Shown piece by piece: positions 26,466 through 59,466 of a stretch of 64,000 nucleotides of DNA. The notes under the pieces were generated by a model. It searched no databases, was not told the origin of the DNA, and saw only the letters and a list, made by a program, of their open reading frames with translations. A program made the position numbers and the translations under genes. This stretch comes from Oscillospiraceae bacterium (GTDB lineage Bacteria; Bacillota; Clostridia; Oscillospirales; Ruminococcaceae). Numbering within the stretch: position 1 is the stretch's first letter; each line of letters begins with the position of its first letter. Location: positions 301,792-365,791 of the forward strand of contig JAJQIF010000009.1 of assembly GCA_021199355.1 (NCBI GenBank). The letters run 5' to 3'.

Positions 26466-29099
26466 ATGAGTAAAAAGTATTGTTACCTTTTCACCGAAGG
26501 CAACGCCAACATGCGTGAGCTTCTCGGCGGAAAGGGCGCAAATCTCGCTGAGATGACCAATATCGGTCTCCCTGTTCCTCAGGGCTTCACAATTTCCACC
26601 GAAGCCTGCACCCAGTACTATGAGGACGGTCGTGTAATCAATGATGAAATCATGGCTGAAATCATGGAGTACGTTGAGAAGATGGAGCAGATCACCGGTA
26701 AGAAGTTCGGCGACAAGGAAAATCCTCTTCTCGTATCCGTTCGTTCCGGCGCAAGAGCTTCAATGCCCGGTATGATGGACACGATTCTTAATCTCGGTCT
26801 TAACGAAGATGTTGTCAACGTCATCGCCGAGAAGTCCGGTAACCCCAGATGGGCTTGGGACTGCTACAGAAGATTCATCCAGATGTTCTCCGACGTCGTC
26901 ATGGAAGTCGGAAAGAAGCATTTTGAAAAGCTTATCGACCAGATGAAGCAGGAGAAGGGCGTTGTTTACGACGTTGAGCTCGATGCCGACGATCTTCACA
27001 ACCTTGCCAACCAGTTCAAGGCTGAGTACAAGGCACAGCTCGGCAAGGACTTCCCCGATGATCCTAAGGAGCAGCTTTATGAAGCAATCAGAGCTGTATT
27101 CCGTTCTTGGGACAACCCGAGAGCCAATGTTTATCGTATGGACCACGATATCCCTTATTCCTGGGGTACCGCTGTCAACGTACAGATGATGGCATTCGGC
27201 AACATGGGCGACGATTGCGGCACCGGTGTTGCATTCACCCGTGACCCGTCCACCGGTAACAAGGGTCTTTACGGCGAATTCCTCACCAATGCACAGGGCG
27301 AGGATGTTGTTGCAGGTGTAAGAACTCCTATGCACATCTCCGAAATGGAGCAGAAGTTCCCCGAAGCGTTCAAGCAGTTCACTGAGGTTTGCAAGACCCT
27401 CGAAAATCACTACAGAGACATGCAGGATATGGAGTTCACCGTTGAGCACGGCAAGCTCTATATGCTTCAGACAAGAAACGGCAAGAGAACCGCTCAGGCG
27501 GCTATCAAGATTGCCTGCGACCTTATCGACGAGGGTATGATTACGGAAGAGGAAGCTCTTATGCAGATTGATGCCAAGAGCCTCGATATGCTCCTCCACC
27601 CGACATTCGATCCTGCCGCCCTCAAGAAGGCTAAGCCCGTAGGCAAGGGTATCGCCGCTTCTCCCGGAGCCGCCGCCGGCACCATCGTATTCACAGCAGA
27701 GGATGCTGTTGAGCATGGCAAGAACAAGGAGAAGGTTGTTCTCGTAAGACTCGAGACCTCTCCCGAGGACATCGAGGGTATGAAGTACTCTCAGGGTATC
27801 CTCACCGTCAGAGGCGGACAGACCTCTCACGCCGCTGTTGTTGCAAGAGGAATGGGAACCTGCTGTGTTTCCGGCTGCGGCGACATCAAGATGGACGAGG
27901 AGAACAAGCAGTTCACTCTCGCCGGCAAGGTTTACCATGAAGGCGATCCTATCTCCCTTGATGGCTCCACCGGTAACATCTATGATGAGATTATCCCCAC
28001 TGTTCCCGCTGATCCCAACTCCGGCTACTTCGGAAGAATCATGGCACTCTCGGACAAGTACAAGAAGCTTGGCGTACGAACCAATGCAGATACCCCGAAG
28101 GATGCCAAGCAGGCAGCCGCTTTCGGCGCACAGGGAATCGGTCTCTGCCGTACCGAGCATATGTTCTTCGATCCTGAGAGAATCGGTGCATTCAGAGAGA
28201 TGATTTGCTCCGAGACCGTTGAGGAAAGAGAGAAGGCTCTTGCTAAGATTGAGCCTATGCAGCAGGCTGACTTTGAAGGACTCTTCGAGGCTTTGGGCGG
28301 ATATCCCGTTACCATCAGATTCCTCGACCCGCCGCTTCATGAATTCGTTCCCACCGAGGAAGCTGACATCGAAGCTTTGGCTGAGTCTCAGGGCAAGAGT
28401 GTTGCCTACATCAAGCAGGTTATCAACGACCTCCATGAGTTCAACCCGATGATGGGTCACCGTGGATGCCGTCTTACCGTAACATATCCCGAGATTGCCG
28501 TTATGCAGACCAACGCTGTCATCAAGGCGGCTATCAACGTACAGGCTAAGCACCCCGACTGGAACATCGTTCCCGAAATCATGATTCCTCTCGTAGGCGA
28601 TGTCAAGGAGCTCAAGTTCGTAAAGGATGTAGTTGTCAAGACTGCTGACGAGGTTATCAAGGCGGCAGGCGTCGACCTTAAGTATGAGGTCGGCACCATG
28701 ATTGAAATCCCGAGAGCCGCTCTTACCGCTGATGAGATTGCTACTGAGGCTGAGTTCTTCTGCTTCGGTACCAACGACCTCACTCAGATGACCTTCGGCT
28801 TCAGCCGTGACGATGCCGGCAAGTTCTTGCCCGCATACTATGAGAACAAGATTTACGAGTCCGATCCGTTCGCTCGTCTCGACACTACCGGTGTTGGCAA
28901 GCTTATGGATATGGCTGTTACCCTTGGCAAGAAGACCAGACCTTCGCTTCACTGCGGTATCTGCGGCGAGCACGGCGGCGATCCTTCTTCTATTGAGTTC
29001 TGCCACAACATCGGTCTTGACTATGTTTCTTGCTCACCGTTCAGAGTTCCGATTGCCCGTCTTGCCGCCGCTCAGGCTGCAATCAAGGACAAGAAGTAA
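26466..29099 (+). CDS. ppdK: Pyruvate, phosphate dikinase
   Basis: 877 aa; ...GGKGANLAEMTNIGLPVPQGFTIST..., GGQTSHAAVVARGMGTCCVSGCG active-site motif. Confidence 0.97.
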   Translation: MSKKYCYLFTEGNANMRELLGGKGANLAEMTNIGLPVPQGFTISTEACTQYYEDGRVINDEIMAEIMEYVEKMEQITGKKFGDKENPLLVSVRSGARASMPGMMDTILNLGLNEDVVNVIAEKSGNPRWAWDCYRRFIQMFSDVVMEVGKKHFEKLIDQMKQEKGVVYDVELDADDLHNLANQFKAEYKAQLGKDFPDDPKEQLYEAIRAVFRSWDNPRANVYRMDHDIPYSWGTAVNVQMMAFGNMGDDCGTGVAFTRDPSTGNKGLYGEFLTNAQGEDVVAGVRTPMHISEMEQKFPEAFKQFTEVCKTLENHYRDMQDMEFTVEHGKLYMLQTRNGKRTAQAAIKIACDLIDEGMITEEEALMQIDAKSLDMLLHPTFDPAALKKAKPVGKGIAASPGAAAGTIVFTAEDAVEHGKNKEKVVLVRLETSPEDIEGMKYSQGILTVRGGQTSHAAVVARGMGTCCVSGCGDIKMDEENKQFTLAGKVYHEGDPISLDGSTGNIYDEIIPTVPADPNSGYFGRIMALSDKYKKLGVRTNADTPKDAKQAAAFGAQGIGLCRTEHMFFDPERIGAFREMICSETVEEREKALAKIEPMQQADFEGLFEALGGYPVTIRFLDPPLHEFVPTEEADIEALAESQGKSVAYIKQVINDLHEFNPMMGHRGCRLTVTYPEIAVMQTNAVIKAAINVQAKHPDWNIVPEIMIPLVGDVKELKFVKDVVVKTADEVIKAAGVDLKYEVGTMIEIPRAALTADEIATEAEFFCFGTNDLTQMTFGFSRDDAGKFLPAYYENKIYESDPFARLDTTGVGKLMDMAVTLGKKTRPSLHCGICGEHGGDPSSIEFCHNIGLDYVSCSPFRVPIARLAAAQAAIKDKK

Positions 29100-29154: not shown

Positions 29155-29234
29155 ATGCCTCTTGATAAAATGCGACGAATATGATACAATATGGCATAGA
29201 GTGATGAAACTTAAATTGAAACGGAGGCGGTAAA

Positions 29235-31397
29235 TTGACAGAAAAATTCTTTCGTTCACAGCTGACCATTTTGAAACCGAAGCTTGTCGGTAGCACACTT
29301 GAGCAAGCAAGAAGAGGGCAGGATTTGCTTGGTGAGCTCATGGCATTTGTCGAGCACAAATCCGTAAGGACTGTCCGGCAGGACTTTCAGGATTTTTCAG
29401 CCGAATGGGTTATCCCGGACGAGTGCAGTTCTGCCGGAGTAATCCTATATCTCCACGGCGGTGGCTACACATGCGGCGGTCTTGAATATGCCCGAGGCTT
29501 CGGCTCGAAGCTTGCATCCGAATATGGTTTGAAGGTCTTCTGCTGTGCCTATCGCCTCGCACCTGAAAATAAATTTCCTGCGGCGCTCGATGATGCCCTC
29601 ACTTCGTATAAATACCTGATAGACAGTGGCTTTCCGTCCGACAGAATCGTCTTAGCCGGAGAATCAGCGGGAGGAGGGCTTTGCTACAGCCTTTGTCTCA
29701 AGCTGAACGAGATTGGACTTTCTCAGCCTGCGGGAATAATCGCAATTTCTCCTTGGACTGATCTGACCGCATCGGGTGAATCTTATGAAACCAATAAGGA
29801 AGTCGACCCAACGCTGACTTTTGAACAGCTCGAGTTTTATGCCGATAGCTATTCCTGCGACAGAACAAATCCCTTCGTCTCGCCGCTTTTCTTTGAGGAT
29901 GGCATCAAGCTTCCGCCATCGCTTATATTTGTCGGAGGCGACGAAATTCTCCTTGACGATTCTACAAGACTGCATAAGAAGCTTCTCGATAGCGGCAATC
30001 GCTCTAAGCTGATAATTGCCGAGAGAATGTGGCACGCCTACGTCCTGTATGACGTAAAAGAGCGTAAATCCGATTACGAGGTTATAAGAGATTTTATCGG
30101 CAGTCTGATACCGATTTCTACAGCAAGGTGGGTCAAACTCGACAACGCCGCGAAGATATTTCCCGCATCACGCCGCAAGGGCTGGTACAACATGTTCCGG
30201 GTGTCGGCTGAACTCAACGAGAATGTGGACCCGGTCGTTCTTCAATCTGCCCTCAATGTCACTGTCGGCAGATTCCCGACAATAGCCGCAAGGCTTAAAA
30301 CCGGTTTCTTCTGGTATTACCTCGAGGAACTGAAAACTCCTCCGACTGTCGTTCAGGACGGCTATCAACCCTTCATGCGCCATCCGTTTGATGACATAAG
30401 AAAGTGCGCCATAAGGGTGCTCTACTATAACAATCGGATCGCTGTTGAATTTTTCCACGCCGTAACCGACGGCACCGGCGGAATGATATTTTTGAAAACT
30501 CTTCTTGCCGAATATATCACCCAGAAGCATGATTTAAGAATTCCCGACGGACACGGTGTTCTGAACAGGCAGGCTTATCCCGAGCCGGAGGAGCTCGAAG
30601 ACAGCTTCCTGAAAAACAGGGGCTCTGTGAGTGCACAGCGGGATTTCAGCAAGTCATACCGCCTCAAGGGCACTCCCGAGCCCGACGGCTTTATCAACAT
30701 CACGACGGGAACGCTCGACGCAAACGCCATACACGAAGCCGCAAAGAGCAGGGAAGTGACTGTAACGGCATTTCTGGCGGCTGTAATGTTAATGTCGCTT
30801 ATCGAGGTGCAGAATTCCCATCAGAAAAAGCGTAGCAAACAAAAGATTGTCAGGGTTCAGATTCCCGTAAATCTTCGGAGACTTTTCCCGAGCAAAACCA
30901 TGCGCAATTTCGCACTTTTTGTCAATGTCGGAGTTGACCCGAGGATGGGAGAATATGAACTTGACGAAATTCTCTCGATAGTCAGTCATCAGCTATCGCT
31001 ACAGCTCACTAAGAAGAACATGCAGGCGGAGTTCACGCCGAATGTCAACGCCGAGCTCGTGATGGGAATCAAGGTCGTTCCTCTGTTCATCAAAAACATC
31101 GGCATGCGAATCGCTTTTTATCAGCTCGGAGAAGGGCAGTCCTGCCTTTCGATATCGAACTTAGGTATGATTGACCTCCCCGAGGAGATGAAAAAGTATA
31201 TCAGATACTTCGATTTTTCCACTGGAGTGCGCTCCTCGTCACCGTTTAACTGCGGTGTCTGCTCGTATGGCGACAAAATGAGAATTAATATTGTAAGAAG
31301 CTCGGTAGCGCCGGAGCTCGAAAGAATCTTTTTCACAAACCTTGTAAAACTCGGCTTTAAAGTCACCGTGGAAAGCAACCGGCGCGATGCCGAATAA
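29235..31397 (+). CDS. Fusion protein: HSL-family alpha/beta hydrolase plus C-terminal condensation/alcohol-acetyltransferase-like domain
   Basis: HGGGYTCGG oxyanion motif, GESAGGG nucleophile, DEILLDD and WHAY; then a C-terminal domain with HAVTDGTGG (HxxxDG). TTG start with upstream GGAGG. Confidence 0.82.
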   Translation: MTEKFFRSQLTILKPKLVGSTLEQARRGQDLLGELMAFVEHKSVRTVRQDFQDFSAEWVIPDECSSAGVILYLHGGGYTCGGLEYARGFGSKLASEYGLKVFCCAYRLAPENKFPAALDDALTSYKYLIDSGFPSDRIVLAGESAGGGLCYSLCLKLNEIGLSQPAGIIAISPWTDLTASGESYETNKEVDPTLTFEQLEFYADSYSCDRTNPFVSPLFFEDGIKLPPSLIFVGGDEILLDDSTRLHKKLLDSGNRSKLIIAERMWHAYVLYDVKERKSDYEVIRDFIGSLIPISTARWVKLDNAAKIFPASRRKGWYNMFRVSAELNENVDPVVLQSALNVTVGRFPTIAARLKTGFFWYYLEELKTPPTVVQDGYQPFMRHPFDDIRKCAIRVLYYNNRIAVEFFHAVTDGTGGMIFLKTLLAEYITQKHDLRIPDGHGVLNRQAYPEPEELEDSFLKNRGSVSAQRDFSKSYRLKGTPEPDGFINITTGTLDANAIHEAAKSREVTVTAFLAAVMLMSLIEVQNSHQKKRSKQKIVRVQIPVNLRRLFPSKTMRNFALFVNVGVDPRMGEYELDEILSIVSHQLSLQLTKKNMQAEFTPNVNAELVMGIKVVPLFIKNIGMRIAFYQLGEGQSCLSISNLGMIDLPEEMKKYIRYFDFSTGVRSSSPFNCGVCSYGDKMRINIVRSSVAPELERIFFTNLVKLGFKVTVESNRRDAE

Positions 31398-31414
31398 CCC
31401 CGGGAGGTGGATTT

Positions 31415-32110
31415 ATGTACTGTGTAAAATGTGGTGTGGAGCTTAAGGACAGCGAACATGTTTGCCCTTTGTGCCTGACTCCAGTGTTTCATCCCGATAT
31501 AAAACAGGAAGATTGCGAAAAGCCTTATCCCGAATTTCGCCGGGTAACCAAAAAGAGCGTCCGGGTAGCTGTCATGTTTGTTGTGACAGTCTGCTTCATA
31601 CTTGTGTCACTTATGGTAGCTATGATTGATTTCAACATCACTTCGGGCATAACTTGGTCGGGCTATGTGCTGGGTGCGCTCGTGATTTTGTATGTATCGT
31701 TCGCGCTTCCCGAGTGGTTCCGTCATCCGAACCCCGTAATATTCACGCCGATTGCGTTTGCAACGATAATACTGTACCTTTTGTATATAGACCTAACGGT
31801 TCATGGCGGATGGTTTCTGAGTCTCGCTTTCCCGATAGCGGGAATCGCCGGCATAATTGTGACAACAATGGTGACACTTTTGCGCTATGTTAAAAGGGGA
31901 CAGCTCTTTATAGTCGGCGGCACACTCATAGCCACCGGTGTGTATGTCTCACTCATAGAGCTCTTTATCTCTATTACCTTCGAGAGCGTAAGCTTTGTCG
32001 GATGGTCGGGCTTTCCGCTTGCGGCGTTCTTTATCTTAGGAATGATGCTGATAATAATCGGAATCTGTAAGCCCTTAAGACTGGCACTTTCAAAGATATT
32101 TTTCGTATAA
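31415..32110 (+). CDS. Zinc-ribbon membrane protein, DUF6320-like
   Basis: MYCVKCGVELKDSEHVCPLCLTPVFHP zinc ribbon followed by about six TM segments; 17 nt after the upstream gene. DUF name from memory. Confidence 0.7.
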   Translation: MYCVKCGVELKDSEHVCPLCLTPVFHPDIKQEDCEKPYPEFRRVTKKSVRVAVMFVVTVCFILVSLMVAMIDFNITSGITWSGYVLGALVILYVSFALPEWFRHPNPVIFTPIAFATIILYLLYIDLTVHGGWFLSLAFPIAGIAGIIVTTMVTLLRYVKRGQLFIVGGTLIATGVYVSLIELFISITFESVSFVGWSGFPLAAFFILGMMLIIIGICKPLRLALSKIFFV

Positions 32111-58497: not shown

Positions 58498-59265
58498 ATG
58501 GAAACAGTGTCAATAACACTCAACGAAGAGAGAAACGTCAGCCTGACGGCATATCTACAGCCTGTCGGTGGTGAATTCTGGGGGATAGAAAAGCGTCCTG
58601 CGATGATAGTTCTTCCCGGCGGAGGTTATATGTACTGCTCTGAAAGGGAAGCCGACCCCATAGCGTTTGTCTATCTACAGGCGGGGTATCAGGTTTTCAT
58701 TCTGAGGTATTCTCTCAGTGAAGATTGTGCTTGGTCGAATCCTCTTGACGATTACGAACAGGCTTACGAGCTTATCAGGAATAACAGTGAAGAATGGCAT
58801 GTTGACATGGACAAGATTGCCGTAATCGGCTTCTCAGCGGGAGGACATCTTGCGGCGGCAACCGCAACCATGTCAAAGTATCGCCCTGCCGCCTGCATCT
58901 TGGGATATCCCGTCATAGTCAAAGAGACTGCCGACGTTTATATTCCGTCTGCTCCCGATATCATCGAAGCTGTTGATGACGAGACAAGCCCTTGCTTTAT
59001 CTTCTCCTCAAGAACAGACGGCATCGTTCCGCCTGAGAACACAATCAGGCTTCTTGATGCTCTGAATCGCTATAATGTGCCTTTCGAAGCTCATATCTAC
59101 GGTTTTGCCAATCACGGCTTCTCAACCTGTGAACCCTGCCTGCAAAATACCGACTGGATTTGCAGTCGTACCCGAAACTGGGTTAGGGACAGCCTTGAGT
59201 GGCTCGGAGATACCATAGGAGTTCTGAAAGTAGGAGATCCCGACTGGATGAAAAACAGCGATTAG
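58498..59265 (+). CDS. Alpha/beta hydrolase (esterase/lipase-like)
   Basis: VLPGGGYMYCSEREADPIA...IAVIGFSAGGHLAAA...GFANHGFS. Confidence 0.82.
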   Translation: METVSITLNEERNVSLTAYLQPVGGEFWGIEKRPAMIVLPGGGYMYCSEREADPIAFVYLQAGYQVFILRYSLSEDCAWSNPLDDYEQAYELIRNNSEEWHVDMDKIAVIGFSAGGHLAAATATMSKYRPAACILGYPVIVKETADVYIPSAPDIIEAVDDETSPCFIFSSRTDGIVPPENTIRLLDALNRYNVPFEAHIYGFANHGFSTCEPCLQNTDWICSRTRNWVRDSLEWLGDTIGVLKVGDPDWMKNSD

Positions 59266-59390: not shown

Positions 59391-59466
59391 GAAGGTATAG
59401 CTCAGCTGGTAGAGCACCTGCTTGACGTGCAGGGGGTCATAGGTTCGAGTCCTATTATCTTCACCA
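59391..59466 (+). tRNA. tRNA-Val (GAC), CCA encoded
   Basis: GAAGGTA...TATCTTC acceptor, D-arm GCTCAGCTGGTAGAGC, anticodon loop TTGACGT (GAC), GGTTCGAGTCC T-arm, ACCA end. Confidence 0.96.

Follow-up and report, generated by a model that had tools for sequence, protein, structure and literature searches.

The locus described here encodes a single polypeptide in which an esterase-like half is joined to an acyltransferase-like half, and whose gene is followed almost at once by that of a small membrane protein. It lies within a window, by which we mean the whole 64,000-nt stretch analysed from an Oscillospiraceae bacterium, and consists of two same-strand open reading frames, of 720 aa at 29235-31397 and 231 aa at 31415-32110, with 17 nt between them, just as the original prediction had placed them. 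The 720-aa frame opens with a TTG codon behind a likely ribosome-binding site, GGAGGCGG (29223..29230, + strand), a call drawn from the sequence and from a start position shared by relatives. A second likely site, GGGAGGTG (31401..31408, +), likewise read from the sequence, precedes the shorter frame. Further upstream, a putative sigma-70 promoter, TTGATA-17-TACAAT with an extended -10 TG (29162..29190, +), gave the best score in the scan at 10 of 12 consensus matches, an assignment by consensus match alone. Together, the promoter-like site and the ribosome-binding sites appear consistent with an operon.

The 720-aa frame is not a product of chance, because it is intact in 28 of the 30 congeners sampled and dN/dS is low. 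Values against five congeners fall between 0.035 and 0.13 for the hydrolase, acyltransferase and DUF6320 parts alike, and by this measure purifying selection acts on all three. AlphaFold2 modelled the whole fusion at a pLDDT of 87, with a stretch of low confidence (mean pLDDT 69-51, residues 291-320) marking a predicted inter-domain linker at about residues 291-298 (30105..30128, +). A profile search of the source genome returned a single AATase match, the window fusion, and two Abhydrolase_3 genes. The other Abhydrolase_3 match is a 255-aa esterase-like gene elsewhere in the window (58498-59265, +), just 5' of tRNA-Val (59391-59466). A 748-aa open frame on the opposite strand (26760-29006, -), antisense to a pyruvate phosphate dikinase-like gene (26466-29099), is most likely a shadow ORF.

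Pfam and NCBIfam, together with PDB matches by sequence and by fold, place the N-terminal half (residues 1-290; 29235..30104, +) among the HSL/family IV esterases. Abhydrolase_3 matches at 2.4e-47 over residues 70-270, and the HGGG (residues 74-77) and GESAGGG (142-148, with GESAG at 142-146) motifs are conserved in the fused relatives. The NCBIfam model GESAG_HSLs scores 215.7 bits, below its curated cut-off of 430, so this match does not assign the protein to that subfamily. The best Foldseek matches, PMGL3 (2.5e-28), EstD11 and EstE5, indicate an alpha/beta hydrolase fold; these enzymes and Est8 share the fold with the N-terminal half at target-normalised TM-scores of 0.87-0.90, and GxSxG also, with PMGL3 having a Ser-His-Glu triad as well. 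All four are stand-alone enzymes, whereas the window domain is fused to an acyltransferase. Est8 (PDB 6y9k) is a close match at 31% identity. The intact HSL motifs of the original prediction were correct as to HGGG, GESAGGG and the histidine, but most likely not as to an aspartate as the acid. Glu237, within GGDE, most likely serves as the catalytic acid: like Ser144 and His267 it is unchanged in 46/46 fused relatives, in contrast to the variable Asp236 just before it, and the PMGL3 esterase offers a precedent with its catalytic Glu243 within GADE (PMC7824956). A match to Say1_Mug180 was set aside as evidence of a sterol substrate, because that profile also matched 12 of 13 HSL enzymes in the set.

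The C-terminal half (residues 299-720; 30129..31394, +), a predicted AATase-type acyltransferase domain by Pfam, hhalign and its motif, opens with WxxLDNAAKIFPA and carries HAVTDGTGG at residues 408-416. The HxxxDG within it (408-413), which had been noticed from the outset, is present in 53/53 relatives. The Pfam AATase profile (PF07247) matches residues 487-677 at 6.1e-11 (42 bits against a gathering cut-off of 22) through its C-terminal part only, and 27 of the 53 relatives match at E 0.01. A condensation-type fold, one of two points on which the original prediction had been made to depend, was borne out by hhalign against condensation domains of other Firmicutes, which gave 97% over 313 columns with HxxxDG aligned. 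Just one of 17 condensation domains is matched by the AATase profile, and weakly, while PapA_C gives a weak match to the acyltransferase family, and neither PF00668 (NRPS condensation) nor WS/DGAT found a Pfam match in the window protein or its relatives. By these profile comparisons the half belongs with the alcohol O-acyltransferases (AATase, weakly PapA_C) more than with NRPS condensation enzymes. PapA-type, WS/DGAT and NRPS condensation enzymes do share HxxxDG and a homologous fold with it, but their direct Pfam matches are weak or absent and the locus has no carrier-protein context. The BAHD motif DFGWG is absent from the window translation and the family alignment, as it is from yeast Atf1 (PMC5484351). 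Searching PDB sequences with the acyltransferase profile gave no significant match, and in a fold search with the whole-chain model the match list was filled by hydrolases. With the catalytic residues of both halves in place and unvarying (the triad in 46/46 fused relatives, HxxxDG in 53/53), neither half is a relic.

A probable relative of the acyltransferase half has been characterised. Clo1313_1074 of Clostridium thermocellum (WP_003519433.1), a 50.4 kDa protein of previously unknown function whose operon is shared with an esterase/lipase, acetylated 2-phenylethanol to 2-phenylethyl acetate when expressed in E. coli, did not act on linear C2-C10 alcohols, and was modelled on the fold of a trichothecene O-acetyltransferase (PMC8112048). 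Translation of the published primers (PMC8112048) gives a start of MNYPKKVEW... and an end of ...EIVSNM*, and members of the unfused clade start MRQRKSVEWTRLDNASK... and end in EITSNL (e.g., ...GIDIEITSNL*) or EIISNF. From these primer-encoded terminal peptides, as distinct from the full sequence, Clo1313_1074 probably belongs to the window family, which it also resembles in its esterase/lipase operon; it differs in that its genes are separate, no fusion is reported and DUF6320 is not mentioned. By analogy with this probable homologue, where alone it was assayed, acyl-CoA:alcohol O-acyltransferase activity may be expected of the window family. The system is thus not entirely the undescribed one first proposed, the probable C. 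thermocellum member having measured alcohol acetyltransferase activity (PMC8112048). A search of openly licensed papers found no mention of DUF6320, and none of a fused esterase-acyltransferase.

That partner (31415..32110, +), which begins MYCVKCG...CPLCLTP, had been described as a DUF6320-like polytopic protein with an N-terminal CxxC...CxxC ribbon, and that description held for the ribbon and the predicted helices. The DUF6320 profile (PF19845) matches it at 1.8e-6 (28.4 bits, just below the cut-off of 29.9), Zn_Ribbon_1 also matches, and 16 of 18 aligned homologues match DUF6320 at E 0.01. The zinc ribbon, CxxC-x10-CxxC (31415..31486, +), has its four cysteines (C3, C6, C17 and C20) invariant across 95 aligned homologues. 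Six transmembrane helices are predicted by the AlphaFold2 model (pLDDT 92.3) at residues 47-76, 81-100, 107-129, 134-158, 163-188 and 199-217, so that the ribbon is followed by a six-helix membrane domain, the layout of the other DUF6320 members seen. A fold search of this model against the PDB gave no match.

How tightly these parts are held together was assessed by scanning GTDB genomes with the acyltransferase profile, which yielded at least 580 loci, the listed ones mainly from animal-gut Clostridia MAGs; the 80 nearest the query were kept for gene-order counts. DUF6320 lies directly 3' of the acyltransferase in 77 of these 80; of the three others, two break off close to the end of a contig. 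Conservation of the parts together, the second point on which the prediction had rested, is therefore evident. The hydrolase is less constant: 37 loci have it fused, 8 have it upstream and 4 downstream, and the other 31 have none nearby. Among the 77 loci with DUF6320, 29 lack a neighbouring hydrolase, and several genomes with no linked hydrolase have no counterpart genome-wide (G037, G055, G046, G034 and G425). In a 399-genome sample of the phylum, 24 genomes have an acyltransferase match and 16/16 DUF6320 matches above 79 bits sit directly behind an acyltransferase. Of 15 module loci from this sample, 10 have a hydrolase directly upstream, in many cases with a short overlap of a few nucleotides. 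Because the hydrolase is variously fused, adjacent or absent while DUF6320 is near-constant, gene order indicates that the core is acyltransferase plus DUF6320, with the esterase as a recurrent third partner. This view departs from the early emphasis, which had been on the hydrolase-acyltransferase pairing. A quick tree built from 112 acyltransferases requires the fused label to change seven times, at least five of them via well-supported branches. A single origin of the fusion finds no support in this tree, which would fit either repeated fusion or one fusion followed by later fission. Conserved as it is across hundreds of genomes, the gene set is probably a real membrane-linked module for making and removing esters, in keeping with the ester-modifying module first suggested.

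The reading we prefer, and which we think has about an even chance of being right, is a membrane-associated cycle of O-acylation and de-acylation acting on a hydrophobic or aromatic alcohol. The C-terminal half, with its HxxxDG histidine as base, would acylate the alcohol hydroxyl with CoA as donor, the group transferred being probably acetyl or some other short acyl. The N-terminal half, as a cytosolic family IV esterase (Ser144-His267-Glu237), would cleave the same kind of ester, so that in vivo the halves would run in opposite directions on a shared substrate. DUF6320 would set the site, holding or regulating the enzyme at the membrane through its six helices with the zinc ribbon as a docking head. 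This is the best reading because two intact, opposed active sites are combined with a membrane partner, and because yeast offers a precedent in which Atf2 acetylates and the HSL-like Say1 deacetylates sterols as a cycle (PMC4076087). There too an AATase-type acyltransferase opposes an HSL-type esterase at membranes, although Atf2 and Say1 are two separate eukaryotic proteins with no zinc-ribbon partner. By the same likeness, the module may serve to control how a small lipophilic alcohol is exported or turned over, or how toxic it is. The cycle cannot be universal in the family, since the esterase is missing nearby in 31/80 loci and genome-wide in several cases. A bolder form, in which the opposing activities on one chain, under DUF6320 control, determine how far a lipophilic alcohol of the membrane or of host origin is acylated, as a new and widespread gut module, we consider rather unlikely.

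The same parts could instead serve glycerolipid remodelling, the C-terminal half acylating diacylglycerol or another membrane lipid hydroxyl in DGAT/PapA-like fashion, the N-terminal half acting as the matching lipase and DUF6320 presenting the lipid. The near-universal membrane partner would suit such a role, as would a diacylglycerol-kinase-family gene (DAGK_cat 8.9e-31) 22 nt past DUF6320 in Anaerotruncus colihominis VE303-02, and a gene for DegV, a fatty-acid-binding protein family, directly upstream of the acyltransferase in three loci (L136, L138 and L142). These neighbours point to lipids but are too rare to carry much weight: the kinase occurs in one locus only, the DegV cases are one clade, a WS/DGAT Pfam match is absent, and Clo1313_1074, the probable characterised member, has a small aromatic alcohol as its acetyl acceptor. 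We regard glycerolipid remodelling as doubtful. The DegV genes, and the MarR-type regulator gene that precedes them in L136 and L138, are mostly confined to one clade and may reflect common descent or chance, and the kinase was dropped as a general partner, being found at a single locus. The Anaerotruncus locus (NZ_CP094683.1 27208-31008, L181) has hydrolase, acyltransferase (annotated as a hypothetical protein) and DUF6320 in order, but unlike the window its set is unfused and plasmid-borne, with the diacylglycerol-kinase-family gene next in an apparent operon.

Two further explanations turn on why the halves are joined. The original prediction suggested transacylation; in such a relay the N-terminal half would form an acyl-enzyme from an ester, and the fused chain would hand the acyl group on to a second alcohol with no need of CoA. 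Family IV esterases are capable of acyl transfer (the title of PDB 6y9k, at 31% identity, reads 'Esterase EST8 with transacylase activity') and a fusion holds both sites close together. An obligate relay is nonetheless disfavoured, because roughly one in three loci that are otherwise intact has no hydrolase (29/77 keep acyltransferase and DUF6320 with none nearby), and several such genomes have none genome-wide; split genes are common, and the usual donors of HxxxDG enzymes are CoA or carrier thioesters. Such transfer is possible, yet we judge it very improbable. A looser tie, in which co-expression or co-localisation is the sole reason for the linkage and esterase and acyltransferase each have a substrate of their own, with DUF6320 as regulator or sensor in place of an anchor, strikes us as improbable to a lesser degree. 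The varying position of the hydrolase (fused, upstream, downstream or absent) speaks for it, as does a DUF6320 membrane domain at the C-terminus of an XRE-type regulator, but the fused forms are not one clade (5-7 label changes) and pairs in distant families suggest a functional tie.

Through this gene set DUF6320 gains a defined partner and a role open to testing, and the loci point to ester-forming and ester-removing activity in hundreds of mostly animal-gut Clostridia. To our knowledge, the products of such activity in gut Clostridia have not been looked for so far. Should the substrate be a host or dietary alcohol, such as a sterol, an aromatic alcohol or a lipid, the module would represent an unrecognised gut transformation. 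In the XRE-type case (L236:1438-2352, -), the DUF6320 membrane domain, at 42.6 bits, forms the C-terminus of a helix-turn-helix regulator, and a neighbouring pair in L201 (6276-7042, -) resembles this arrangement; both are possible membrane-bound transcription regulators. As the same membrane domain sits behind an XRE domain, DUF6320 may have a sensing role, perhaps a general one at the membrane.

A genome of the same genus (G012; L044), 95% complete, lacks the module and has a weak acyltransferase match only. The module or parts of it also occur on unverified faecal scaffolds named 'Bacteriophage sp.' (MT835493, MT835472, MT836634 and MT835641; L182, L203, L204 and L205), which are probably bacterial sequence filed as phage.
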